A stretch of 64,000 nt of DNA from Georgenia satyanarayanai (GTDB lineage Bacteria > Actinomycetota > Actinomycetes > Actinomycetales > Actinomycetaceae), in NCBI RefSeq assembly GCF_900116375.1, contig NZ_UETB01000001.1:1-64000 (forward strand). Reading direction: 5' to 3'. Positions 44,314 through 59,040 of this stretch are shown here, one piece after another; position 1 is the stretch's first letter, and the number at the start of each line of letters is the position of its first letter. The notes under the pieces are model-generated. The model ran no database searches and had not been told where the DNA came from. It saw nothing but the letters and a program-made list of their open reading frames with translations. A program made the translations under genes and the position numbers.

Positions 44314-44772
44314 TCAGCCGGCGTCGCCGCTGGCGGCGCGGAACATCCAGGCCTGCTTCTCCAGACCGGTGGCGACCGTGACGAGGAGGTCGTGGCTCAG
44401 CGGGTCGCTCTCCTCGACGTCGTCGAGCGTGGACTTGATGCGGTCCGCGACCGACTGGAGGCGCTCCTCGAACTGGCGGATGACCTTGTCGTCGGGAAGG
44501 CGGCCGCCGGACAGCGACTCGACCCGCGTGGAGCTCGCCACGGTGGAGGCCCGGCCGTCCGGCTCGCCGCCGATCGCCACGAGCCGCTCCGCGACGTCGT
44601 CGGAGGCGAGGCGCACCTCGGCGGTGACCTCGTCGAGCTGGAGGTGGACGGAGCGGAAGTGGGACCCGTAGATGTTCCAGTGAGCCTGCTTGGCCTGCAG
44701 GGACAGGTCGATGAGGTCGACGAGGGTCTCCTGGAGGCTGGTGAGGACCTTCTCCGTGGGCTTGGCAGCCAT
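44314..44772 (-). CDS. dps: Dps family ferritin-like DNA-binding protein
   Basis: A 152-residue Dps: [35 protein letters not shown] carries the ferroxidase His/Asp/Glu pattern found at the dimer interface, followed by [18 protein letters not shown]. Dps dodecamers oxidise and store iron and shield DNA. ATG 44772 is preceded by GGGAGAG. The N-terminal tail is short with two Lys. I see no iron box upstream. Confidence 0.93.
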
Positions 44773-44878
44773 CTGCTCTCTCCCTTCCGCGGCGCACGTC
44801 CTGTGCCCGCGACGACGATGACGAACGCTGCCGAGCATATGGCGGGGCCTGGTCCGCCGCCTCCCACAGCCGCTGCGG

Positions 44879-44884
44879 TAGAGT
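44879..44884 (+). promoter_or_regulatory. -10 element of the leuS leader transcript
   Basis: TAGAGT ends 7 nt before the ATG of the leader peptide at 44892, so the leader ORF is probably translated from a leaderless mRNA. The -35 region is weak. Confidence 0.55.
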
Positions 44885-44891
44885 GGGGCGC

Positions 44892-44927
44892 ATGTCGCGA
44901 CGGGTCCTCCTTACGCAGCCGCGCTGA
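44892..44927 (+). CDS. leuS leader peptide
   Basis: A 12-codon ORF encodes [11 protein letters not shown] followed by TGA. It has consecutive Leu codons CTC-CTT, the latter rare in this GC-rich genome. It sits between a good -10 element and a hairpin with T-tract upstream of leuS, the organisation of a classical attenuator in which ribosome stalling at Leu codons reflects charged tRNA-Leu supply. Confidence 0.6.
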
Positions 44928-44988
44928 CCACAGCGGGCGCCGACGGCGCCGCATCAGCGCGGCCCACCTCCCTGCGGGGAGGTTTTCT
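44918..44988 (+). terminator. leuS attenuator (pause hairpin and intrinsic terminator)
   Basis: GCCGCGCTGA at 44918-44927 pairs perfectly with 44954-44963; the leader stop codon lies in this stem. It is followed by a terminator stem ACCTCCC (44966-44972) with GGGAGGT (44977-44983) and the run TTTTCT. CCTCC in the Leu-codon region (44906-44910) can also pair with GGAGG (44978-44982) of the terminator, an alternative that would prevent termination. Confidence 0.7.
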
Positions 44989-45024
44989 CATGCCAGGAGC
45001 GACCACCCCCACCGTGAGGATCAG

Positions 45025-47934
45025 ATGAGCACCGACACCCCCGTCCCCGCGGAGCCCCGCTTCCGCTACACCGCCCGGCTGGCGAGCGAGATCGAGCAGG
45101 CCTGGCAGGACCGCTGGGAGGAGCTCGGCACCTTCCACGCGCCCAACCCGGTCGGCGACCTCGCCGGTGACACGACGGACTCGACCTTCTACGTGCTCGA
45201 CATGTTCCCCTACCCCTCGGGCAAGGGGCTGCACGTCGGCCACCCGCTGGGCTACATCGCGACCGACGTCGTGGGCCGCTACCAGCGGATGAAGGGCAAG
45301 AACGTCCTCCACGCGCTGGCCTACGACGCCTTCGGCCTGCCCGCCGAGCAGTACGCCGTCCAGACCGGCCAGCACCCTCGGGTCACCACCGAGGAGAACA
45401 TCGCCAACATGCGCCGCCAGCTGCGGCGCCTGGGCCTGGGCCACGACGAGCGTCGCTCCTTCGCGACGACGGACACCGACTACGTCCGCTGGACGCAGTG
45501 GATCTTCCTGCAGATGTACCACGCCTGGTACGACACGGACGCCGAGCGTCCCGGCGGTGGCCGTGGCGCGGCGCGCCCGATCAGCGAGCTGGAGGTCGCC
45601 TTCGCCGACGGCACCCGGCCCACGCCGTCGGGCCGGGCCTGGGCGGACATGGACGCGGACGAGCGCGCGGCCGCCCTGGACGCGCACCGCCTCGCCTACG
45701 TCTCCGACGCGCCGGTCAACTGGTGCCCCGGGCTGGGCACCGTCCTGGCGAACGAGGAGGTCACGGCCGACGGGCGCTCCGAGCGCGGCAACTATCCCGT
45801 CTTCAAGCGCAACCTGCGCCAGTGGATGATGCGGATCACCGCCTACGCCGACCGTCTGGTCGACGACCTCGACCACATCGACTGGCCCGAGAAGGTCAGG
45901 ACGATGCAGCGCAACTGGATCGGCCGCTCCGAGGGCGCGATCGTCAGCTTCGCGCTGCCCTCCCGGGTGAGCGCGGGCGAGGCGCCCGGCGGCGCCGCGG
46001 ACCTGGCGCTGGACGTCTTCACCACCCGGCCCGACACGCTCTTCGGTGCGACCTTCATGGTGCTCGCCCCCGAGCACCCGCTCCTCGACGACGCCGTGCC
46101 CGCCTCCTGGCCGGCAGGCACGCAGGAGTCGTGGACCGGTGGGCACGCGAGCCCGGCCGAGGCCGTCGCCGCCTACCGCGCGCAGGCCGCCGCGAAGACG
46201 GACGAGGAGCGGCAGGAGGAGGGGCGCACCAAGACCGGCGTGTTCACCGGCGCCTTCGCGACCAACCCCGTCAACGGCGCCCAGCTGCCCGTGTTCGTCG
46301 CCGACTACGTCCTCATGGGCTACGGCACCGGCGCGATCATGGCCGTGCCCGGCGGCGACGCGCGTGACTACGAGTTCGCCCAGACCTACGGGCTGGACGT
46401 CGTCCACACCGTGCAGCCGCCCGCCGAGCACGTCGAGGGCGCCTGGACGGGCGAGGGCGAGATCATCAACTCCGCCAACGACCAGATCTCGCTCAACGGC
46501 ATGGGCGTGGCCGAGGCCAAGGCCGCGATCACCGAGTGGCTGCAGGCCCGCGGCCTCGGAGAGGCCCGCACGACCTACCGGCTGCGCGACTGGCTCTTCT
46601 CCCGCCAGCGCTACTGGGGCGAGCCCTTCCCCGTCGTCTACGACGAGGAGGGCCGCGTCCACGCGCTGCCCGAGGAGATGCTCCCGGTCGACCTGCCCGA
46701 GGTCCCGGACTACTCCCCGCGCACCTTCGACGCCGACGACGCCACCTCCTCCCCGGAGCCCCCGCTCGGGCGGGCCGAGGACTGGGTCAACGTCGAGCTC
46801 GACCTGGGTGACGGCGTGAGGACCTACCGGCGCGACACGAACACGATGCCCAACTGGGCCGGCTCGTGCTGGTACGAGCTGCGCTACCTGGACCCGGCCA
46901 ACACCGAGCGGCTGGTCGACCCGGCCAACGAGCAGTACTGGATGGGCCCGACCGCCGAGAAGTCCTGCGGCGGGGCCGACCTGTACGTCGGCGGCGTCGA
47001 GCACGCCGTGCTGCACCTGCTCTACGCGCGCTTCTGGCAGAAGGTGCTCTTCGACCTCGGGCACGTGTCGAGCGTCGAGCCCTTCCACAAGCTCTTCAAC
47101 CAGGGCTACATCCAGGCCTACGCCTTCGCCGACGCCCGCGGCCAGTACGTGCCCGCGGACGAGGTCGAGGAGGTCGCGGCCGAGGACGGCTCGGGCGAGG
47201 TGAGCTACCGCTGGCAGGGCCAGGTGGTCACCCGCGAGTACGGGAAGATGGGCAAGTCCCTCAAGAACATCGTCACGCCCGACGACATGTACGAGGCCTA
47301 CGGCGCCGACACCTTCCGGCTGTACGAGATGTCGATGGGGCCGCTGGACCTGTCGCGGCCCTGGGACACGCGCGCCGTCGTCGGCTCCCAGCGCTTCCTG
47401 CAGCGGCTGTGGCGCAACGTCGTCGACGAGGAGACGGGGGACCTGGTCGTCACCGACGAGCCGGCCGACGAGGAGACCCGTCGCCTGGTGGCACGGACGA
47501 TCACCGACGTCGAGACCGAGATGGCGGCGATGCGGATCAACACCGCGATCGCCCGCCTCATCGTGCTGAACAACCACCTCACCGGCCTGGCGGCGAGCCC
47601 GCGCGAGGCGGTCGAGCCGCTGCTGCTCATGCTCGCGCCGGTCGCGCCGCACATCGCCGAGGAGCTGTGGCGGCGGCTCGGGCACGAGGGTTCCCTGGCC
47701 CACGAGCCGTTCCCCGTGGCCGACCCGGCGCTGCTCGTCGAGGACACCGTGACCTGCGTGGTCCAGGTGGCCGGCAAGCTGCGGGACAAGCTCGAGGTGC
47801 CGGTCTCGATCGACGCGGCCGAGCTCGAGCGGCTGGCCCTCGAGACGCCGGGCGTCAAGCGGGCGCTGGGTGACCGGGGGATCCGCAAGGTCATCGTGCG
47901 GGCGCCCAAGCTCGTCAACGTGGTCCCGGCCTAG
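45025..47934 (+). CDS. leuS: leucyl-tRNA synthetase
   Basis: A 969-residue class I synthetase. The HIGH-type motif is [16 protein letters not shown], the editing domain contains [20 protein letters not shown] and [19 protein letters not shown], and the KMSKS-type loop is KMGKSLKN. The bacterial leucine-specific and C-terminal domains are present. ATG 45025 follows GTGAGGA. Expression is probably controlled by the upstream attenuator. Confidence 0.97.
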
Positions 47935-47993: not shown

Positions 47994-48509
47994 TCAGCCC
48001 TCCAGGCGGGGGAAGGCGCGGTCGAGGTAGACGAGCGGCCGCGTGCCCTCCTCGGTGTGGGCGAGGACCGCGCGCAGCGTGATGAGCAGGCTGTCGCCGA
48101 CGGGTACCCGCTGCTCGACGATGCCCCGGACCCACGCCGTGGTGCCCGGGAGGACGGGCTCGCCGGTGGGCAGCGAGCAGTGCTCCAGACCGGCGAAGCG
48201 ATCAGCGCCACGGGCGGCGAAGCGCCTGGCGAGGTCCTGCTGGTCCTCGCTGAGGAAGTTGACGACGACGCTCGGGGCGCTGTCGAGGATCCGGCGCGAG
48301 GTGGAGCCGGCGGCCACGGAGAAGGCCAGCATGGCGGGGTTCGCGGCGACGGAGATGACCGAGGTGGCGGTGAAGCCGGCGGGACCGTCGGGGGTGGCGC
48401 AGGTGATGACGGCGACGCCCGCGGGGTGGCGGCGGAAGACGGCCTTGAACTCCTCGCTGCCCACCGACTGGGGCAGGACGGCGGGCGTGGCGGGCTGCTC
48501 GGCGGTCAT
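47994..48509 (-). CDS. flavin reductase family protein
   Basis: A 171-residue FMN-binding split-barrel protein: EFKAVFRRHPAGVAVITCATPDGPAGFTATSVISVAANPAMLAFSV is the family core, and the middle has VNFLSEDQQDLARRFA. Such proteins supply reduced FMN to two-component monooxygenases. A luciferase-like flavoenzyme is encoded at 51013, so the two may work together. ATG 48509 is chosen. Confidence 0.9.
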   Translation of the reverse strand: MTAEQPATPAVLPQSVGSEEFKAVFRRHPAGVAVITCATPDGPAGFTATSVISVAANPAMLAFSVAAGSTSRRILDSAPSVVVNFLSEDQQDLARRFAARGADRFAGLEHCSLPTGEPVLPGTTAWVRGIVEQRVPVGDSLLITLRAVLAHTEEGTRPLVYLDRAFPRLEG

Positions 48510-48611
48510 CAACGGTCCTTCACGGTCGGGTCGGGGTCCCGACCCATTGTCCGCCAGGCTGCGCCCGGGTGGGATGTGAGGTGCGTGTCTGCGGCAGCGC
48601 CCGCCGCGGGC

Positions 48612-50489
48612 TCAGAACGGTGGATCGGTGGTGTCCGTGCCGGTCCGCACCCAGGTGACTCGGCCGTGGTGGTCACGCTGGTAGACGTGCCCGCTCGGCG
48701 TGGTCCAGCGGAAGGTGCCGCCTCCCAGGTGCTCGAGGCGGAACTGGCCGAGCGTCTTGACCAGGTGGTCGGGCCGGCATCCCGCGCCGAGGTTGAAGGC
48801 GCTCGTGGGGCCCTCGGGGAAGGGGACGACGTGGTCGAGGTCGCAGCTGTGGGCCGGCGTGGAGCAGCCCGGGATGACGCAGCTTCGGTCGCGTGCCCGG
48901 ACGAACTCGGCCAGGGCGGCGGGTGGGCGGTACCGGGTGCGGCCGACGTCGAGGACCTCGCCGCTCAGCGGGTCGGTGACGATCCGCTGCCAGGTGTCTG
49001 CGCTCATCGCCAGGGCGCGGGCGACGTCCGGGGTGATGGGGCCGTAGCCCTCGAGCTCGGCGACCTCTGCCAGCGGGAGAGGGGGGTCCTCGGCAGGTTC
49101 GTCGGCGGGGCTGCCCCCTGGAGGGTCGTGGGCAGGGCTCGCCCCTGCAGCCTCGTCGGCTTCTCCCGTGAGGTGGTCCAGGCACTCGCCGAAGGCGGGG
49201 AAGGCCCCCTGCGTCTCCGGCGGGAGGACGAGGACCGAGAGCGGCACGTCGACCCGGATGACGGCACGCTTGCCGCCGATGGTGCCGACGGGCATGTGCA
49301 GCATCCTGAGGTAGTCGCTGACGGGCTGCAGGTCCGTCGCCGCAGACGGGGCCGCGGGCACGCCGTCGTCGGCGTCGTCCACCTGAGCGTCCCCGCCGCC
49401 CGCCTCCGCGGCGGGCGCGGCGTCCGTGTCGCCCGCCTCCGGCAGCCCGACGTAGCCCTGCTCGAGCGCGGTGTGGCCCATGAGGGCGAGGACGTCGGCG
49501 CGGAGCTGGTCGATCGTGCGACCGTCCCCGGACGCCTTGGCGCTGCGCGCGGCCGCCTCCAGGGCGAGGTCGAGGCCGGCGGCGTCGGTGGCGGGAAGGA
49601 GGGCGTGGATCGAGGCCATACCGTCGGGGAGCGGGCGCGGGTGGTCCACCCGGCGCTGCGCGCGGGCGCTCTGGTGCCGCTGGATCGCCCGGCTCGGATC
49701 GATGGCGATGATCGCCTTCTCCACGGCCCGCCTGAGCTGGGTGGGAGTCTGGTGGACGGCATCGGGGAGGACCGCGCGCTGGACCTCCCAGGCGACGTCC
49801 GCCGGCTGGTCCGCCAGGTGGCGCGTGAGCACGGCGGCCTTGGCCGGGTCGAGGAGACCCCGCCGAAGGGCCTCGGCCGTCTGGTCGAGCTTGTCCCGGA
49901 AGAGCCGGGCATCACCCACCATGCGGCGTGCCGCGAAGCGGGTGAGCCCCAGCCGTGGGGCGAGCTCGGCGGCAGCGCAGTCCGCCGCGATCTTCCCACC
50001 CGGGAGAGGGTGGTGCGGGTTGATGCCGGGCCGCGCCGCCACGACCCCGCTGAGCTCGGTGGCCCGGGCCGTGGCCCAGGACGCCAGCCGCTGGTAGCCG
50101 GCCACCATCTCGACCAGCCCGTACAGGTCGACGGTGCGCGGGTCCAGAACCTCGAGCGCTGCCGCGAGAGCGGGCCCCGGGACCACGGAGGTGAGCAGGC
50201 GGCCCAGCTCTGCGCCGTCGTCGCCGTCGAGGAGGTCCGCGTCCCTGTGCCGGGCGGGGCGGCCGGCCAGCAGGAGCGGGTCGGGCGGAAGGGGAGGGAG
50301 CTCGGCGGGTCCGTCGTCCTCGACGGCGACCTCCTCGGTCCACAGCTCGTCCGGGCCGGCGCCCGGCGGGAGGGGGTCGGGCGGAAGGGGAGGGAGCTCG
50401 GTGGGGCCGTCGTCGAGCACGAGCCAGGGCGGGGGACCGGCGAGGTCAGCCGGGCTCGACCACTGACCCTCGGCCTGCGTCGCCGCCAT
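48612..50489 (-). CDS. DUF222 and HNH endonuclease domain protein
   Basis: A 625-residue protein. A DUF222 domain (about 95-400) is followed by an HNH nuclease at about 545-600: SCVIPGCSTPAHSCDLDHVVPFPEGPTSAFNLGAGCRPDHLVKT. This family (13E12 repeat type) is amplified in actinobacterial genomes; its role is unknown and may be linked to mobile DNA. The N-terminus has a 96-bp tandem duplication that repeats ELPPLPPDPL. ATG 50489 is preferred because GAGGTG is 9 nt upstream; GTG 50501 is an alternative. Confidence 0.88.
   Translation of the reverse strand: MAATQAEGQWSSPADLAGPPPWLVLDDGPTELPPLPPDPLPPGAGPDELWTEEVAVEDDGPAELPPLPPDPLLLAGRPARHRDADLLDGDDGAELGRLLTSVVPGPALAAALEVLDPRTVDLYGLVEMVAGYQRLASWATARATELSGVVAARPGINPHHPLPGGKIAADCAAAELAPRLGLTRFAARRMVGDARLFRDKLDQTAEALRRGLLDPAKAAVLTRHLADQPADVAWEVQRAVLPDAVHQTPTQLRRAVEKAIIAIDPSRAIQRHQSARAQRRVDHPRPLPDGMASIHALLPATDAAGLDLALEAAARSAKASGDGRTIDQLRADVLALMGHTALEQGYVGLPEAGDTDAAPAAEAGGGDAQVDDADDGVPAAPSAATDLQPVSDYLRMLHMPVGTIGGKRAVIRVDVPLSVLVLPPETQGAFPAFGECLDHLTGEADEAAGASPAHDPPGGSPADEPAEDPPLPLAEVAELEGYGPITPDVARALAMSADTWQRIVTDPLSGEVLDVGRTRYRPPAALAEFVRARDRSCVIPGCSTPAHSCDLDHVVPFPEGPTSAFNLGAGCRPDHLVKTLGQFRLEHLGGGTFRWTTPSGHVYQRDHHGRVTWVRTGTDTTDPPF
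50281..50401 (-). repeat. 96-bp spaced duplication in the DUF222-HNH gene
   Basis: A 25-bp block occurs at 50281-50305 and again at 50377-50401. The duplicated peptide is DDGP(T/A)ELPPLPPDPL, in the disordered N-terminal region. Confidence 0.8.
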
Positions 50490-50565
50490 CTCGCTCACCA
50501 CCTCGGTGCCGTGAACCTGATGCCCTCACCGTATGACCGACCCCTGACATTCGACCGCGTGACAG

Positions 50566-50595
50566 TTGACACATGAAGTGAGGCCCCGCTAGCGT
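50566..50595 (+). promoter_or_regulatory. promoter of the SAM-IV riboswitch transcript
   Basis: A perfect TTGACA at 50566-50571 is followed after 18 nt by TAGCGT at 50590-50595. Transcription would begin near 50602, at the first bases of the riboswitch. Confidence 0.75.
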
Positions 50596-50600
50596 CTGCC

Positions 50601-50742
50601 CCAGGTTCAGAGCACCAGTGCGCACCTCGAGTGCGCTAAGCCCCGGCTTGCTGGTCGGCAACCCGCCACGTGCGGCGGGTGCCCCGGGTGATGACCTGGT
50701 CCCGTGACCGTCGGGACAACGGAGCGCACCGTGACGGTGCCA
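50601..50742 (+). promoter_or_regulatory. SAM-IV riboswitch
   Basis: The core from 50627 to 50697 matches the actinobacterial SAM-IV consensus nearly base for base: GAGTG, then AAGCCCCGGCTTGCTGG, CGGCAACCC, a short hairpin, GGGTGCCCCGGGTGATGACC. P1 can form between 50601-50616 and 50687-50699 with small bulges, and the following hairpins at 50699-50716 and 50727-50741 match the 3' domain. Compared with the mycobacterial RNA, AGTGCGC occurs twice 13 nt apart before the core, as if a short duplication had occurred. SAM-IV binds S-adenosylmethionine and usually turns off sulfur or methionine genes. Confidence 0.9.
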
Positions 50743-50763
50743 GCACGCGAAGGACGTACCAGG

Positions 50764-50850
50764 ATGACCACGCACCTCAGCCCCCGGCAGATCACCAGCC
50801 GTTGCGGCAGCAGCATGTGCATGTGCGGTCGTCCGTGTATGTCGGTCTGA
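50764..50850 (+). CDS. Cys/Met-rich leader ORF downstream of SAM-IV
   Basis: A 28-residue ORF starts at ATG 50764, 22 nt after the riboswitch, with GAAGGA upstream. Its second half is RCGSSMCMCGRPCMSV: four Cys and three Met in 15 residues. The stop codon lies in the loop of a hairpin made by 50832-50835/50857-50860 and 50838-50843/50851-50856. Cys-rich leader peptides act as cysteine-sensing attenuators in mycobacteria; this one combines such an ORF with a SAM aptamer. Coding is inferred from composition and position. Confidence 0.6.
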   Translation: MTTHLSPRQITSRCGSSMCMCGRPCMSV

Positions 50851-51012
50851 GACATACGGAAGCGACGCCCTCGGCGCGAGCCGCGCTGACGCGTCACCCC
50901 TGATCCAGCCCCCGAGCCGCCGGCGAGTGACACGCCAGGCGCCGGACCCGGCGTATCAGGTCTCACGTCCTTCCCTGCGCCCCAGGGCGCTGTGACCTCG
51001 ATAGGTGCTGCC
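50851..51012 (+). other. leader segment between the Cys-rich ORF and the flavoenzyme gene
   Basis: This 162-nt stretch is GC-rich with several possible stems (for example GGCGCC and CCGGAC around 50938-50952, and GCGCCCCAGGGCGC at 50977-50990). No coding region is evident. It probably holds the output structure of the riboswitch or leader peptide, but no T-tract terminator is seen. Confidence 0.35.
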
Positions 51013-51987
51013 ATGACTGCTGCGTTCCTGCCCACCCGTACCACCGCGACGAGCTCGACCACCGCGACCATCGCCCTCGACCTCTCCGGCCTCGGCGCCC
51101 CCGCGCACGACCGGGAGGCGGCCGCCGGCCTGCCCGCCGAGCAGGCCAACCTCGTCCGTCTCGCCTCCTACGCCCGCGCCGCCCACAAGGGCGGGGTCTC
51201 CTTCGTCACCCTCGGTGAGGACTTCCGCCTCCGCGCCGACGCCGCGCCGCGCGCCAACGCCTGGCTCGACCCGGTCATCGCCGCCCGCCGCATCAGCCCC
51301 AGCGCCGGGGGCACGGGCCTCGTGCCCACCGTCCAGCTCGGCCGCGCCGACTCGGCCGTGGCCGCCGAGCTCGCCCAGTTCAACCGCAAGAGCGGCTCGT
51401 GGGCCGGCCTGCAGGTGGCGCGCGGCGAGCAGGCGCCGGTGGCCGCGCTGCCCCAGCTCGGGGACCTGCTGGAGGAGCTCGTCCGCAGCACCGCCGCCCG
51501 CTCGAGCCAGCGGCCCACCGTCGTCGTCCCGCTCGAGGAGGAGGCCGACCTCGCCGCCGCCGGCGAGCTCGCCGACGTCGTCCGGCTCCGTGAGGCCGAC
51601 CTGAGCTGGGCCCGCGAGCTGCGCTTCGCCGTCCGCTCCGCCGCGCGCGCCGCCGGCCGGGGCCCCGTCCGCGTGCTCGTCGACCTGCGCACCGTCATCG
51701 CCTCCGACTACGAGTCCGCCCGCGCCCGCGCCGACCTCCTCACCGACATCGCCGGAAGCGACGCCGGGTGGGCGGGCGCGCTCGAGGCCGTCGGCACCGT
51801 CGGGGACGTCGTCGCGACGATCGAGCGCTGGATCGAGGCCGGTGCCGCGGACGGGTTCGTCGTCCTGCCCGGGTCCATCCCCGCCGACGTCCAGCGCCTG
51901 CTGCGCGGGATCATCCCCGCCCTGCAGGCTCGCGGTCTGGTGTCGGTGGCCGGGGCGACCACGGAGGCGCAGGCGGTCCCGGCGTGA
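51013..51987 (+). CDS. luciferase-like (LLM) flavin-dependent oxidoreductase
   Basis: A 324-residue protein with the TIM-barrel pattern of bacterial luciferase-like monooxygenases: ANLVRLASYARAAHKGGVSFVTLGEDF, ANAWLDPVIAARRISP, SGSWAGLQV, and near the C-terminus TIERWIEAGAADGFVVLPGSIPADVQRLLRGIIPALQARGL. Some family members oxidise sulfonates or organosulfur compounds with FMNH2 from a partner reductase. The upstream SAM-IV riboswitch and Cys-rich ORF indicate control by sulfur status. The substrate is unknown. Confidence 0.75.
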   Translation: MTAAFLPTRTTATSSTTATIALDLSGLGAPAHDREAAAGLPAEQANLVRLASYARAAHKGGVSFVTLGEDFRLRADAAPRANAWLDPVIAARRISPSAGGTGLVPTVQLGRADSAVAAELAQFNRKSGSWAGLQVARGEQAPVAALPQLGDLLEELVRSTAARSSQRPTVVVPLEEEADLAAAGELADVVRLREADLSWARELRFAVRSAARAAGRGPVRVLVDLRTVIASDYESARARADLLTDIAGSDAGWAGALEAVGTVGDVVATIERWIEAGAADGFVVLPGSIPADVQRLLRGIIPALQARGLVSVAGATTEAQAVPA

Positions 51988-53612: not shown

Positions 53613-54595
53613 CCGACCTGGACCTGCTCACCCGCCCGCACGCAGTTGGAGACGTGGCCCGGCCCGAGCGTCACGGTCGGCACGTGGCGGGCGCACTCCT
53701 CGACCGCGAGCGGGCAGCGAGTCCGGAAGACGCAGCCCGACGGCGGGTCGACGGGGGAGGGGATGTCTCCCTCGAGGAGGATCCGGCGGCGCTGCCGTTC
53801 GGCGATCGGGTCGTCCTTGGGGATCGCCGACATGAGCGCCTGCGTGTACGGGTGCCCCGGCTCGGCGTAGATCTGCTCCCGTCCGGCGAGCTCCATGAGC
53901 CGGCCGAGGTACATCACCTGCACCCGGTGGCTCATGTGCTCGACGGCCGCGAGGTCGTGGGAGATGAAGAGGTAGGCCAGCCCGAGCTCGTCCTGCAGCC
54001 GGCGGAGCAGATTCATGATCTGGGCCTGCACGGACACGTCGAGCGACGCGGTCGCCTCGTCCAGCACGACGAGGGACGGCTCGCCCGCCAGCGCCCGCGC
54101 GATGCTCACGCGCTGGCGCTGCCCGCCGGACAGCTCGTGCGGGTAGTGGTCGAGGAAGCGCTCGGGCAGCCCGACGAGGTCCATGAGCTCGGTGATCCGC
54201 CGACGGCGGGCAGCCCCGCGGTGGAGGCGGTGGATCTCCAGGGGCTCTCGCACCGTCTCGGCGACCGTGCACCGGGGGTCGAGGGAGGCGAGCGGGTCCT
54301 GAAAGACCATCGCCGTCCGGCGTCGCAACGACCGGAGTCGCGCGCCGCGTGCCGAGAGGACGTCCTCACCGTCGAGCAGCACCTGACCGCCGGTGGGCGT
54401 CACGAGCCGCAGCAACGCGTTCCCGATCGTCGACTTCCCGCTGCCGGACTCACCGACGAGGCCGAGCGTCTCGCCGCGGTCGAGTGTGAAGGAGACGTCC
54501 TCGACGGCGCGGACCCACTGCCTGCCGAGGCCGCGGGTGGCGGGGACGGGGAAACGGACCTGGAGGTCGCGCACCTCGAGCAGGGGCACGGTCAT
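53609..54595 (-). CDS. oppF: oligopeptide ABC transporter ATP-binding protein (OppF-like)
   Basis: A 328-residue ATPase: Walker [10 protein letters not shown], signature [15 protein letters not shown], Walker [13 protein letters not shown], and the C-terminal oligopeptide/dipeptide domain with Cys residues ([15 protein letters not shown]) that bind an iron-sulfur cluster in some homologues. The stop shares CTAG with degV. The start overlaps the oppD stop. Confidence 0.93.
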
Positions 54596-55578
54596 CTCGC
54601 CTCCCGGGACGTCGTGTAGAAGGAGCGCACGAGGTGGCCCGGGCCGACCTGGCGGAGCTCGGGGCGCTGGGTCGCGCAGCGCTCGTCGGCCCGGACGGTG
54701 CACCGGTCCCAGAACACGCACCCCTCCGGCAGCGCCCGCGGGTCCGGTGGACTGCCCGGGATCGTCACGAGCTCCTCGTCGCGCGAGCCGAGCCGCGGCC
54801 GGGCGGCGAACAGGCCCTCGGTGTAGGGGTGGGCGCGCTCCCGGAAGAGGGTGAGGACGTCGGCCTGCTCGAGCACCTGCCCGCCGTACATGACGGCCAC
54901 GTGGTCGGCGAGGCCGCCGACGACGGCGAGGTCGTGGCTGATCCACACCGTCGCCGTCCCGAGGCGCTCCTGGAGGCCGCGCACCGCGTCGAGGATCTGG
55001 GCCTGGATGGTGACGTCCAGCGCCGTCGTCGCCTCGTCGGCGATGAGCACCTTCGGCTCGCAGGCGAGCGCGATCGCGATCATCACTCGCTGCCGCATCC
55101 CGCCGGACAGCTCGTGCGGGAAGGACCGCAGCCGGCGCTCGGGGTCGGGGATGCCGACGAGCTCGAGCAGCTCGACGGCGCGGGTGGTCGCGGCCCGGCG
55201 GGTCATGCCGAGGTGCTCCTCCAGTCCCTCGGTGAGCTGCCGCTCGACCGAGAGGACCGGGTTGAGCGAGGTCGCCGGGTCCTGGAAGACGAAGCCGATG
55301 CCCCGCCCGCGCACCCGGCGCAGGGCCTCCGGGGACAGGGAGAGGAGGTCGCGGGGCGGGCGGCCGTCGTCGTCGGCGAGGAGCACCTGCCCGGTGACCC
55401 GCGCCGTCGGCGCCCCGACGAGTCCGGTGGCGGCGAGGACGCTCATCGACTTGCCCGAGCCGGACTCACCGACGATCCCGAGGGTCTGACCCTGCTCCAC
55501 CGACCAGCTCACCCCGCCGACGATCCGGGCGGAGCCGATCTGGACACGCAGGTCACGGACCTCGAGGACGGGGCTCAC
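54592..55578 (-). CDS. oppD: oligopeptide ABC transporter ATP-binding protein (OppD-like)
   Basis: A 328-residue ATPase: Walker [10 protein letters not shown], signature [15 protein letters not shown], Walker [14 protein letters not shown] and the C-terminal [16 protein letters not shown] block. It pairs with OppF to power the importer. It starts at GTG within the stop of oppC. Confidence 0.93.
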
Positions 55579-56477
55579 TTCTTGCCTCCGGTGTCGGCGC
55601 GGACGTCCAGGACGTCACGCAGGGCGTCGCCCACAAGGTTGCACGCGAGCACGGTGACGAAGACGGCGACACCGGGGAAGATGCTCATCCACCACGCCTG
55701 GTCGAGGAAGCCGCGCGCGTCGAAGAGCATGCGCCCCCACGAGGGCTCCGGCGGCTGCACACCGAGCCCGAGGAAGGACAGCGAGGCCTCGGAGAGGATC
55801 GCGAAGGCGAGGGAGAGCGAGGTCTGGACGATGATCGGCGCTGCGACGTTGGGCAGCACGTGCCTGCCGATGATGCGCCCGGGCCGCGCTCCGAGGGAGA
55901 CGGCGGCCCGCACGTAGGGCTCGGTCCGCACGCTCAGCACGCTGGCCCGCGTGACGCGCGCGAAGATCGGGACGTAGACGACGCCGATCGCCACCATCGC
56001 CGTCGTGAGACCAGGACCGAGGATCGCGACGATCGCCATCGCGAGCAGCATGACCGGGAAGGCGAACAGGACGTCGGCGCTGCGCATGATGACGGTGTCG
56101 AGCCAGCCGCCGAAGTAGCCGGCGACCACCCCGAGCAGCACGCCCGCGACGAGCGCGATGGTGACCGAGACGAGCGCGACCTGCGCCGAGACCCGTGCCG
56201 CGAGGAGCACGCGCGAGAAGACGTCCCGTCCGAGCTCGTCGGTCCCGAAGAGGTGCGCACCGCTCGGTGGCTGCAGTGCGCGGCTGACGTCGACGGCGTT
56301 GGCCGGGTAGGGCGTGAGCTGCTCCCCGAGCACGGCCGCCACGACGACGACGGCGAGGACGAGCAGGCCGACGACGGCGATCGGCCGGCGCACCAGGGCC
56401 CGCAGCGCCCGCAGCCGGTTCGGCGGACGGTGCGGCACGTTCGGTGCGGCGGGTGGGACGGCGGTCGCGGCGCTCAT
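55575..56477 (-). CDS. oppC: oligopeptide ABC transporter permease (OppC-like)
   Basis: A 300-residue permease. The cytosolic N-terminus and first helix (PIAVVGLLVLAVVVVAAVLG) are followed by HLFGTDELGRDVFSRVL, the OppC signature, and the EAA-like loop AAVSLGARPGRIIGRHVLPNV. It overlaps oppB by 4 nt. Confidence 0.94.
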   Translation of the reverse strand: MSAATAVPPAAPNVPHRPPNRLRALRALVRRPIAVVGLLVLAVVVVAAVLGEQLTPYPANAVDVSRALQPPSGAHLFGTDELGRDVFSRVLLAARVSAQVALVSVTIALVAGVLLGVVAGYFGGWLDTVIMRSADVLFAFPVMLLAMAIVAILGPGLTTAMVAIGVVYVPIFARVTRASVLSVRTEPYVRAAVSLGARPGRIIGRHVLPNVAAPIIVQTSLSLAFAILSEASLSFLGLGVQPPEPSWGRMLFDARGFLDQAWWMSIFPGVAVFVTVLACNLVGDALRDVLDVRADTGGKK

Positions 56478-57418
56478 GAGGTCACCCGGACCCGCGGGTC
56501 GACCTTGCCGTAGAGGAGGTCGACGAGCAGGTTGATGAGCAGGAAGATCGCGGCGGTGAGCAGGATGGCCCCCTGGAGGAGCGGGTAGTCACGGGCGAGG
56601 ACGGCGTCGTAGATCAGGCGGCCCAGCCCCGGCCACGCGAAGACGACCTCGACGACGACGACGCCCCCGAGCATCGTCGCCAGCTGGTTGCCGGTGATCG
56701 TGAGAACCGGGATGAGGGAGTTGCGCACGACGTGCCGCCCGAGGACGACCCGGTTGCGCAGGCCCTTGGAGCGGGCGGTGCGGACGTGGTCGGCGGCGAG
56801 CACCTCGAGCACGGAGGAGCGGATGTAGCGGGTGAGGATCGACCCGGCGACCAGCCCGATCGTCAGGGCGGGCATGACCACGCGCCTGGCCCACCCGGCC
56901 GGGTCCTCGGTCAGTGGCACGTAGCCGGAGGGCGGGAGCCAGCCGAGGGTGGAGGAGAACAGCAGGATGAGGAGCATCGCCATCCAGAAGTCCGGGACCG
57001 ACACCCCGAGCTGGGACACGCCACGGACCAGGGAGTCGCTGCCGCGGCCGTGGCGGAGCGCGGCGAACAGCCCGAGCGGGAAGGAGACGAGCAGCGCGAT
57101 GACGATGCCCGTGCCCGCCATCGAGATCGTCGCCGGGAGCCGGCCGAGGAGGATCTCGGTGACCGGCTGCCCGGAGCGGAAGGACACCCCGAGGTCACCG
57201 GTGAACGCGCTCGTCACGTAGCCGAGGTACTGCTGCACGAGCGGGCGGTCCAGGCCGGAGGCCTCCCTCAGCCGGGCGTAGACGTCGGGGTCGAAGCGCG
57301 TGCCCATCGCGATGCGCACCGGGTCTCCCGGCACGAGCTGGACGATCGCGAAGACGAGGACGGAGACCCCGAGCAGCACGACCGCCGAGTGGAGGAGCCG
57401 GCGGACGACGAAAGCCAT
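56474..57418 (-). CDS. oppB: oligopeptide ABC transporter permease (OppB-like)
   Basis: A 314-residue permease with six helices. RRLLHSAVVLLGVSVLVFAIVQLVPGDPVRIAMG is the usual N-terminus, and HVRTARSKGLRNRVVLGRHVVRNSLIPV is the EAA loop. It lies 14 nt after oppA. Confidence 0.94.
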   Translation of the reverse strand: MAFVVRRLLHSAVVLLGVSVLVFAIVQLVPGDPVRIAMGTRFDPDVYARLREASGLDRPLVQQYLGYVTSAFTGDLGVSFRSGQPVTEILLGRLPATISMAGTGIVIALLVSFPLGLFAALRHGRGSDSLVRGVSQLGVSVPDFWMAMLLILLFSSTLGWLPPSGYVPLTEDPAGWARRVVMPALTIGLVAGSILTRYIRSSVLEVLAADHVRTARSKGLRNRVVLGRHVVRNSLIPVLTITGNQLATMLGGVVVVEVVFAWPGLGRLIYDAVLARDYPLLQGAILLTAAIFLLINLLVDLLYGKVDPRVRVTS

Positions 57419-57432
57419 GTGTCAGGTCCGCC

Positions 57433-58989
57433 TCAGTCGGTGAGGGAGACGTCCTTGAACCGGATCGCCCGGTTGCTCATCACCGTGTACCCCTCCAGCT
57501 GCGGGCTCCACGCCTGCACGACGTCGGGGTTGTAGAGGTAGATGTAGCTCGCGTCGTCGGCGACCTGGGTGGCGACCTGCTCGTAGATCTCCCTGCGGGC
57601 CTCCTCGTCGGTCTCGACACGGCCCTGCTCGAGGAGGGCGTCCACCTCCGGGTTGCTGTAGCCCTGGAAGTTGTTGGCGCCCTCGGAGTGGTGCTGGGCG
57701 TAGTAGAAGTCGTCCGGGTCGAGGTTGCCGAGCCAGCCCATCATGAGCATGTCGTAGCTGCCCTGACCCTGCTCGTCCAGCCAGGTGCCGAAGTCCAGGG
57801 TGCGGATCTCCACGGCGATCCCGACCTCGGAGAGCTGGCTCTCGATGATCTGGGCCGCCTGGACCGTCTCTGGGTAGTCGCTGGCGACCATGAGGTCCAG
57901 GGTGATGTCGCCCTCGGCGACGCCGGCGCCCTCGAGGAGCGAGCGCGCCTGCTCGACGTCGTGGGAGTAGCGGTCGTAGGGGGTGTAGAAGCTCGAGGAC
58001 TCGGGGATGGCGGTCTGGTTGACCGTCGCGTTGCCGTACATCGTCGCCTCGGTGATCGCCTCGCGGTCGATCGCGTAGGAGATCGCCTGGCGGACCTCGA
58101 CGTCGTCGTAGGGCTCCGCGTCCTGGTTGAGCGCGAGGTACCAGTAGTCGTTGGACCCGACCTGCCCGAGCTCGATCGTGTCGTCGGCGCTCAGGGAGGC
58201 GACCTGCTGCGGCGGAAGGTTGTCGGTCCAGTGGATCTCGCCGGCCTGGAGCGCGGCGACCGCCGTCGTCGGCTCCGGGATGAACTCGAAGGTGACGCCC
58301 GCGACGGAGGGCGCGCCGTCCCAGTAGTCCTCGTTGGCGACGAGCTCGATCGACTCGCCGGTCGCGTAGCGCTCCACGCGGAAGGGACCGGTGCCCACCG
58401 GCGCGGTGCCGATGTCGCCGGACTCGACGTTCTCCTGCTGGACGATGGCCACGCCCTTGAAGCCGCCGATGTTGGCGAGGAGGTTGGGGGAGGGGCTGGA
58501 GACGGTGATCGTCACCGTGGACTCGTCGGTGGCCTCGACGCTCTCGACGGCCGAGAAGCGCCAGGAGTTGGCGAGCTCCTCGTCGATGATGCGGTTGAAG
58601 GAGTAGGCGACGTCGTCGGCGGTGAAGGGCGAGCCGTCGTGCCAGGTGACGCCCTCGCGCAGGGTAAAGGTCCACGTGAGCTGGTCCTCGCTGGTCGTCC
58701 ACGACTCGGCGAGGGCGGGAACCATCTCCAGGTTCTCGTCCGGCTGCACGAGCGTGTCGAAGACGTTCTCGAGGACCTGGAAGGAGAAGTAGGCGGTCGT
58801 GCTGTGCGGGTCGAGCTGGTCGGGCTCTCCCGCGATGCCGGCGACGACGACGTCGCCGCTCGGCGTGCCTGTGCCCGAGCTGGTGGCACCGTCGGTGGCG
58901 TCGACGTCGACACCCTCTCCGGTGCTGCAGGCGGCCAGGGTGAGAGCTGCTGCGGCGGCCGCGACGAGCCGTCGGGTGGAGGCGGACAT
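57433..58989 (-). CDS. oppA: oligopeptide/dipeptide ABC transporter substrate-binding lipoprotein (OppA-like)
   Basis: A 518-residue SBP family 5 lipoprotein: a signal peptide ends in LAAC (lipidated Cys near residue 21), followed by a Thr/Ser linker and the family block LAESWTTSEDQLTWTFTLREGVTWHDGSPFTADDV. ATG 58989 is preceded by AAAGGAG. The ligand (peptide, dipeptide, nickel or other) cannot be determined; the adjacent DUF1028 gene fits amino acid or peptide scavenging. Confidence 0.93.
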   Translation of the reverse strand: MSASTRRLVAAAAAALTLAACSTGEGVDVDATDGATSSGTGTPSGDVVVAGIAGEPDQLDPHSTTAYFSFQVLENVFDTLVQPDENLEMVPALAESWTTSEDQLTWTFTLREGVTWHDGSPFTADDVAYSFNRIIDEELANSWRFSAVESVEATDESTVTITVSSPSPNLLANIGGFKGVAIVQQENVESGDIGTAPVGTGPFRVERYATGESIELVANEDYWDGAPSVAGVTFEFIPEPTTAVAALQAGEIHWTDNLPPQQVASLSADDTIELGQVGSNDYWYLALNQDAEPYDDVEVRQAISYAIDREAITEATMYGNATVNQTAIPESSSFYTPYDRYSHDVEQARSLLEGAGVAEGDITLDLMVASDYPETVQAAQIIESQLSEVGIAVEIRTLDFGTWLDEQGQGSYDMLMMGWLGNLDPDDFYYAQHHSEGANNFQGYSNPEVDALLEQGRVETDEEARREIYEQVATQVADDASYIYLYNPDVVQAWSPQLEGYTVMSNRAIRFKDVSLTD

Positions 58990-59018
58990 GGTGAGCTCCT
59001 TTGGTTGCCGTGCCGCTG

Positions 59019-59040
59019 TCATTGCAATGACGATATCGTC
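59019..59040. promoter_or_regulatory. tandem palindromic operator between oppA and DUF1028 genes
   Basis: Two perfect 12-bp palindromes, TCATTGCAATGA (59019-59030) and GACGATATCGTC (59029-59040), overlap by 2 bp in a 112-nt divergent promoter region. They are likely binding sites for a dimeric regulator, plausibly the XRE-cupin protein encoded at 59751. Confidence 0.6.

Follow-up and report, generated by a model that had tools for sequence, protein, structure and literature searches.

A SAM-IV aptamer, a Met/Cys-rich upstream ORF and a conserved RNA module share one leader before a flavin monooxygenase-like gene in two bacterial families

In Georgenia satyanarayanai, a SAM-IV riboswitch aptamer is followed on the same leader by a short upstream open reading frame (uORF) rich in Met and Cys codons and by a further RNA module, all ahead of a gene for a flavin monooxygenase-like protein. 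This combination of SAM-IV and a Met/Cys uORF ahead of a flavoenzyme-like gene, to which a preliminary description of this single locus had drawn attention, is conserved in two families of the order, at 22 of 23 loci in one and at 10 of 10 in the other. The leader probably takes two inputs, SAM through the aptamer and the charging of Met- and Cys-tRNA through ribosome stalling, for the benefit of what is likely to be a sulfur-salvage flavin monooxygenase.

Layout of the leader and its gene

The window (the whole stretch of 64,000 nt that was analysed, on contig C24 of the 3.9-Mb genome G000) contains a leader of ~410 nt between a DUF222 gene and an LLM-class flavin monooxygenase-like gene, hereafter the LLM-like gene. 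Its parts follow one another as promoter, SAM-IV aptamer, Shine-Dalgarno (SD) region, uORF, stop-codon hairpin, E2/E3 module, pyrimidine tract and gene (Table 1), and comparison with other loci supports this predicted order and its conservation. Also near the locus are genes for a flavin reductase-like protein (47994-48512, minus strand) and a leucyl-tRNA synthetase-like protein (44392-47934, plus strand), as well as an oligopeptide-type ABC transporter operon (54592-59022, minus strand) encoding a solute-binding protein, two permeases and an ATPase.

Table 1. Features of the leader and of the genes on either side of it, in window coordinates
Feature	Position	Strand	Basis or details
DUF222 gene	48612-50501	minus	divergent from the LLM-like gene
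Promoter TTGACA-N18-TAGCGT	50566-50595	plus	sequence and comparison; -35 at 50566-50571, -10 at 50590-50595
SAM-IV riboswitch aptamer	50604-50728	plus	Rfam RF00634, 57.7 bits, gathering score 38
uORF SD region GAAGGACGU	50749-50757	plus	sequence; AAGGA core at 50750-50754
uORF, candidate leader peptide MTTHLSPRQITSRCGSSMCMCGRPCMSV	50764-50850	plus	28 codons; ATG at 50764, stop TGA at 50848-50850
Hairpin E1h, uORF stop in loop	50837-50857	plus	GUAUGUC 50837-50843, loop GGUCUGA, GACAUAC 50851-50857
E2/E3 RNA module (models R1, R2)	50862-50945	plus	covariation, genome searches
Helix E2	50864-50868 (GACGC) with 50891-50895 (GCGUC)	plus	consensus GAYGC:GCRUC
Hairpin E3	50922-50936	plus	GGCG, loop AGUGACA, CGCC; stem and loop conservation
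Pyrimidine tract ACGUCCUUC	50965-50973	plus	complementary to the uORF SD region 50749-50757
LLM-class flavin monooxygenase-like gene	51013-51987	plus	324 aa; presumed target; profile matches

The aptamer assignment of the preliminary description is confirmed by a whole-length match above the gathering score (positions 1-116 of the model), the sole Rfam match above gathering in the whole window. The same description placed a strong promoter exactly at the start of the aptamer. The form of this promoter is well supported, TTGAYN-N16-19-TANNNT being present upstream in all 33 loci compared, but the adjective is not, as the element is not among the promoters listed by a generic sigma-70 scan of the window. 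From the position of its two boxes, just 5' of the aptamer, transcription is expected to start a few nucleotides before the aptamer instead of exactly at it. In the ten loci from the second family, f13 (L151-L160), the -35 region reads TTGACACGTCA in every case; this string is longer than a -35 box and is perhaps an operator.

The gene behind the leader had been called a flavoenzyme gene, and this is borne out in the sense that it encodes a flavoenzyme-like, divergent LLM-like monooxygenase. NCBIfam TIGR03860 (NtaA/DmoA) is matched with an E-value of 1.7e-16 and 60.1 bits, far below the curated cut-off of 279.7, and the homology is mainly C-terminal, hence the name LLM-like. A profile built from eight homologues matches YtnJ, MoxC, DszA, dimethyl-sulfide monooxygenase and their relatives, mostly over the last ~55 residues. 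Proteins from Oceanitalea stevensii and from two G. satyanarayanai strains are 95-98% identical to it, and its AlphaFold model has a pLDDT of 34. The weak homology and the mode of regulation together suggest a role in sulfur salvage. In G. satyanarayanai P7 (locus L081) the LLM-like gene has one in-frame stop; in the same genome (G041, leader L037) the uORF is open and E2/E3 is present.

The upstream ORF and its Met and Cys codons

The uORF has the 28 codons, and its second half (residues 14-28) the four Cys and three Met, reported in the preliminary description; it begins 35 nt past the aptamer end as set by Rfam, not 22 nt. Met and Cys account for 7 of the 27 non-start codons, a number of Cys plus internal Met that 2000 dinucleotide shuffles of the uORF never reached. 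The window holds 96 ORFs that begin with ATG and have 20-40 codons; in only one do Cys and internal Met add up to five or more, and in this uORF they add up to seven. For five uORFs taken from different genera, the observed Met/Cys count was reached by between 0 and 0.5% of 2000 dinucleotide shuffles. The Met/Cys richness of the uORF exceeds chance, and the uORF shows the property by which leader peptides are recognised, that of a short ORF in which codons for the regulated amino acid are over-represented. A search of its peptide against the leader-peptide families of NCBIfam and Pfam retrieved no family at E-values up to 1, queries this short scoring weakly.

All 33 uORFs compared have an SD-like core no more than 26 nt upstream; it ends at most 12 nt before the ATG in 24 of them and 13-15 nt before it in the other nine, where the spacing is longer than ideal or a nearer SD alternative is only weaker. 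As the window is GC-rich and holds many short ORFs, one might ask whether the uORF is a chance reading frame of a GC-rich leader; this is very improbable, given that start, SD-like core, open frame and stop occupy the same place across genera and in two families, and that such Cys/Met richness is rare.

Searching 151 genomes of the family with RF00634 gave 48 SAM-IV matches in 35 genomes, and all 48 loci were read. The LLM-like gene follows 23 of these elements, and in 22 of the 23 loci a Met/Cys uORF (at least three Cys plus internal Met) lies in between, the exception being L005 in G021. In 24 of the 48 loci, among them the second SAM-IV element of G000 (L001), an ORF of at least 80 codons starts no more than 43 nt past the aptamer end, which leaves no room for a separate uORF. 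Many family elements (L001, L020, L041 and similar) stand directly before a gene for a small protein of ~110-210 aa; the three such proteins tested, from L001, L020 and L041, matched no Pfam family above cut-off, and G117 holds four SAM-IV copies, three of them before genes of this kind. At L003 (G002), SAM-IV is followed by the uORF MQINSAAPRATTASSLMAACMCTCECRR, which ends CMCTCECRR, and then by a Sulf_transp (YeeE-like) gene (Pfam E-value 3e-105).

Beyond the family, a covariance model of the E2/E3 module (R2) run over 396 genomes of the order matched in 14, namely four of the genus of the window and ten of f13. All ten f13 loci, which were found by way of this model, have SAM-IV at 93-105 bits, a Met/Cys uORF and an LLM-like gene, and nine of the ten uORFs contain a Met-Cys-Cys-Cys run, L158 being different. 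Over 296 genomes of the class, R2 matched G000 only.

We also read 90 high-scoring SAM-IV loci of the order (30 listed and 60 chosen ones), a sample biased towards the best aptamer scores. A scripted call found Cys/Met uORFs in four of the 90, each with 7 codons and each before metY. These four (L055, L064, L066 and L197) look like a second class of SAM-IV plus uORF, with ORFs shortly after the aptamer that encode MTCRMPF, MIQRMCP, MTCRMRR and MIERMCR, and with metY starting 176-275 nt from the aptamer core; two further Cys/Met uORF candidates, L182 and L212, were picked out by eye among the SAM-IV loci of the order. SAM-IV loci before other genes mostly have no Met/Cys uORF, so the pairing belongs to particular genes and not to SAM-IV in general. 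In most of the other loci read SAM-IV is close to the main gene, whereas in this leader the two are separated by a uORF and a further RNA module. The proposed search of SAM-IV loci for Cys-rich ORFs downstream thus gave a divided answer, holding at orthologous loci and failing across SAM-IV at large.

The weight that the preliminary description laid on Cys also needs adjusting. Cys is usual in these uORFs, but the internal Met codons are kept across all groups and are more constant than the Cys codons, the uORFs of genus g21 having three or four internal Met and no or one Cys. Typical peptides are MNTHPSPRQIALSPRRSMCMSMCCRSRMSA in g22, MTTHQSPRPITSRSGASMCMWARPCMSA in g1 and MALTNNIQTAGQRVSAPFHLRRMRMWHKSMA in g21. 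Conservation extends to the RNA and, within the uORF, to the start, the frame, the stop, the Met and Cys columns and a few more, such as one Gln and one Ser column. In 11 uORFs of g22, g8 and G013, pairwise sums of substitutions at codon positions 1, 2 and 3 are 370, 288 and 270, and of the codon differences 99 are synonymous and 521 non-synonymous; there is no third-position bias in this set, and the peptide varies freely outside the Met/Cys columns. General selection on the peptide sequence is absent, which suits a leader peptide acting in cis better than a peptide acting in trans. Translation of the uORF is accordingly predicted from its frame, its SD and its conserved Met and Cys codons rather than from a codon signature.

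Leaders without SAM-IV

The LLM-like gene is present in 74 of the 151 family genomes. Of its leaders 72 were read (those of G143 and G147 were left out), 23 with SAM-IV and 49 without. Six of the 49 have a clear Met/Cys uORF (G013, G016, G029, G058, G072 and G006) and two a weaker one (G018 and G048), several of these uORFs ending in Arg-Met-Cys-Arg/Lys/Ser; about 41 have no convincing uORF under a filter that used an ending or composition rule and may have missed others. In G013 the leader consists of the promoter, the uORF MNTHRTLGQSPSTLRSEVMCMCMCGRARMSA, E2/E3 and the LLM-like gene, but no SAM-IV: RF00634 found none in the genome, none in L105 at E-values up to 0.5 and none in L133 at gathering. 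Promoter and uORF are 72 nt apart in G013 compared with 139-171 nt in the other 32 loci, a spacing that suggests either excision of the aptamer or a leader into which none was ever inserted. As the promoter, the uORF and the downstream RNA of G013 stand without an aptamer, this comparison shows the uORF module to be separable from SAM-IV. The distribution is consistent with an older leader-peptide device that gained the aptamer or lost it.

The endings of these peptides bear on how the uORF might sense. An Arg-Met motif lies near the stop in most g22 LLM uORFs (RMSA or RMSL), in some of the SAM-less ones (CRMCR, RRMCS and FRMCR) and in metY uORFs (CRMPF, CRMRR and ERMCR), as it would if the uORF encoded a nascent arrest peptide whose Arg-Met just before the stop senses a metabolite in the ribosome, and not tRNA charging. 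We regard such a peptide as improbable: the Arg-Met end is not kept in most f13 uORFs nor in any of the six from g1, the Georgenia genus, the groups do not share a conserved N-terminal part, and so many Met and Cys codons are most simply understood as codon sensing.

The E2/E3 module and other pairings

Comparison backs two predicted helices, E2 and E3, in the module downstream of the uORF, a module that the preliminary description did not mention. In a covariation set of 18 sequences from both families, which favours the structure somewhat because four of the 18 (L105, L108, L110 and L113) entered through matches to model R1, 91.4% of the E2 and E3 cells are paired (78.3% in shuffles), 28 cells carry double changes (8.9 in shuffles, and at most 8 with slid partners) and the covariation score is 0.389 (0.137 in shuffles). 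None of 500 shuffles was as high on any of these three measures; the number of pairs with double changes, six against 4.6 in shuffles, was reached by 43 of the 500. E2 is paired in 98.9% of its cells and shows a U-A/C-G compensatory change, and strands from the same locus pair better than strands exchanged between loci (p below 0.0001 over 21 loci, 0.0005 in f1 and 0.011 in f13). E3 has compensatory changes at five of the six pairs counted, its outer two pairs being unpaired in 8 of the 18 sequences. Both helices were recovered, together with some weak long-range pairs, when the alignment from the uORF SD to the gene was folded.

A scan of 33 leaders, with an E3 loop pattern chosen after reading these same loci, found a fully paired 4-bp E3 stem in all 28 loci outside g21, with eight different stems and with the loop AGUGACA in 16, CGUGACA in six and other variants in six. 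In g21, all five loci carry SAM-IV together with a Met uORF, yet none of them gave an E2/E3 match or the E3 stem and loop; E2/E3 therefore cannot be essential to every version of the leader. Over the 151 family genomes R1 gave 20 matches in 19 genomes at E-values up to 0.05; 18 of them fall in these leaders, and the other two, both weak, were taken as chance. In the order genomes it gave 12, of which six are these leaders; the other six, all with E-values of at least 0.016, were likewise taken as chance, since their surroundings contain no such leader. Throughout the genomes searched, confident matches occur only in this leader, one per genome.

E2/E3 has no match in Rfam, the only hit besides SAM-IV being the pseudoknot family RF01082 with an E-value of 1.5, below gathering. 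This, and a conserved loop carried on eight different stems together with a conserved CACCCC segment, as in binding sites, would be expected if E2/E3 were an RNA binding a metabolite or protein independently, a third sensor to which the uORF is a minor accessory. Such a sensor seems rather unlikely to us, as confident module matches are never found apart from the uORF and the g21 loci do without E2/E3 altogether. If E2/E3 is instead part of the two-input leader, it may be a new conserved regulatory RNA, a decision element that integrates the state of SAM-IV with the position of the ribosome in the Met/Cys uORF. The leader would then be a natural AND gate for the end product SAM and the supply of its precursors (charged Met- and Cys-tRNA), built by adding an aptamer to the older leader-peptide device; we put this forward tentatively, as a possibility with the odds against it.

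Between the uORF and the module lies E1h, and the statement that the ORF ends in a hairpin stands, its loop carrying the stop. E1h is stable and clearest in g1 and g22, with modest statistical support (mean z of -0.9 over 29 loci), f13 having only a short version near control level. The outer part of E1h overlaps a strand of E2, so an extended E1h and E2 would be alternatives. Their competition is sterically plausible, but coevolution shows up weakly, with p 0.017 when 21 loci are taken together and no significance inside the single families.

Other pairings were considered. Sequestration of the main ribosome site by the codon run was rejected as a general mechanism, strand swaps giving p-values of 0.33, 0.47, 0.14 and 0.61 in four groups and a sliding-window test of the codon run against the main SD giving a mean z of +0.73 over 31 loci, weaker than coding windows; as exceptions, the minimum-energy fold of Georgenia shows this pairing and four g22 loci score high. 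A pseudoknot between GUGA of the E3 loop and UCAC of E2 was also rejected, the segments being complementary in most loci but nearly invariant and showing no coevolution (p 0.82, in a test in which the L153 loop was mis-assigned). A pyrimidine tract similar to that of the window is visible in the aligned loci. The uORF SD and this CCUUCC tract are complementary over 9 nt in Georgenia, and only one of 20 group tests reached p 0.007; the possible long-range pairing is a lead.

None of the three leaders scanned (those of the window, L010 and L141) has an intrinsic terminator, and for this reason the leader is not filed as a classical transcription attenuator. Folded as a single sequence, the leader of the window is not clearly more stable than its shuffles (z of -1.0). 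With no intrinsic terminator found, C-rich stretches downstream of the uORF and little amino-acid constraint outside the Met/Cys columns, the uORF could serve as a general ribosome gate, through Rho cover or mRNA stability, for which SAM-IV sets uORF initiation and the Met and Cys codons matter little. There is a parallel behind a B12 riboswitch, where uORF translation is reported to be essential for PPE2 expression (PMC11260477). A gate of this general kind is a minority prospect, since the Met/Cys run is kept across two families and exceeds shuffles, and since metY and the Sulf_transp gene at L003, which are sulfur genes too, are likewise preceded by Met/Cys uORFs.

Proposed mechanism and relation to known systems

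An integration of SAM with tRNA charging is plausible from the arrangement of the parts. In the two-input leader, the SAM-IV aptamer would read SAM and control the entry of ribosomes to the uORF, and a ribosome on the uORF would read the supply of charged Met-tRNA, usually also of Cys-tRNA. Where charged tRNA is scarce, the ribosome would slow on reaching the Met/Cys run, which lies a few codons ahead of the stop; its position would choose between E1h and the neighbouring E2, and expression would be set through the E2/E3 module. The likeliest scheme is that SAM, once bound, would close the uORF start, so that no ribosome enters and the default fold keeps the gene low; when SAM is low, a ribosome would enter, and the gene would be on only if that ribosome is stalled for lack of Met or Cys. 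The output step would be Rho-dependent termination or translation initiation, and Rho, which has been proposed for mycobacterial Cys leaders without conserved terminators, may act here too.

Several of the elements have precedents. The Streptomyces lividans metL peptide, 29 residues and Met/Cys-rich (MSTTSDRTPATEATTTPGARCMCRRMCAF), precedes the Met import operon metNIQ and, like the leader described here, has no typical terminator; unlike it, metL is described as leaderless and is not listed there as a SAM-IV target (PMC8079986). Short ORFs with Cys codons near their end precede sulfur genes in the mycobacterial cys and cysA2 operons (PMC1262725, PMC4633059), and for the cys operon leaders, described as having no conserved terminator hairpins, Rho was proposed (PMC1262725). 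Compared with what those sources describe, Met is more constant here than Cys, SAM-IV precedes the uORF and a conserved RNA module follows it. The LEU element before leuA of Actinobacteria resembles the present leader in joining a leader-peptide codon run to a conserved RNA structure, for which a pseudoknot was proposed (PMC1262725); the pairing of codon run and main SD by which it is defined there was not supported here by the swap and sliding-window tests. The B12 riboswitches with uORFs in Mycobacterium tuberculosis combine a riboswitch and a translated uORF on one leader, respond to another ligand and are described without mention of a Met/Cys codon run (PMC11260477). A SAM-II riboswitch has been described to act on translation at a distance (PMC9373788).

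Met/Cys leader peptides, Cys uORFs and riboswitches with uORFs are thus already known, and what appears new is the combination of a SAM aptamer with a Met/Cys uORF, together with the conserved module; among the matches listed in the open-access literature, none described a SAM aptamer in combination with a leader peptide of the Met/Cys type. A non-peptide sensor is combined with a codon-sensing ORF, the proline-codon ORF mgtL, in the Salmonella mgtA leader, which senses Mg2+ and proline and is not known to contain a SAM aptamer.

Riboswitches sense metabolites and leader peptides sense charged tRNA, and the two are usually treated as alternatives. The leader described here would be one conserved leader with both sensors for one pathway, and its natural variants, G013 without the aptamer and g21 without E2/E3, would allow the contribution of each sensor to be tested. 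The locus further contributes an RNA that is structured and unmatched in Rfam, and it points to a candidate sulfur function for a flavoenzyme-like protein that is poorly characterised.
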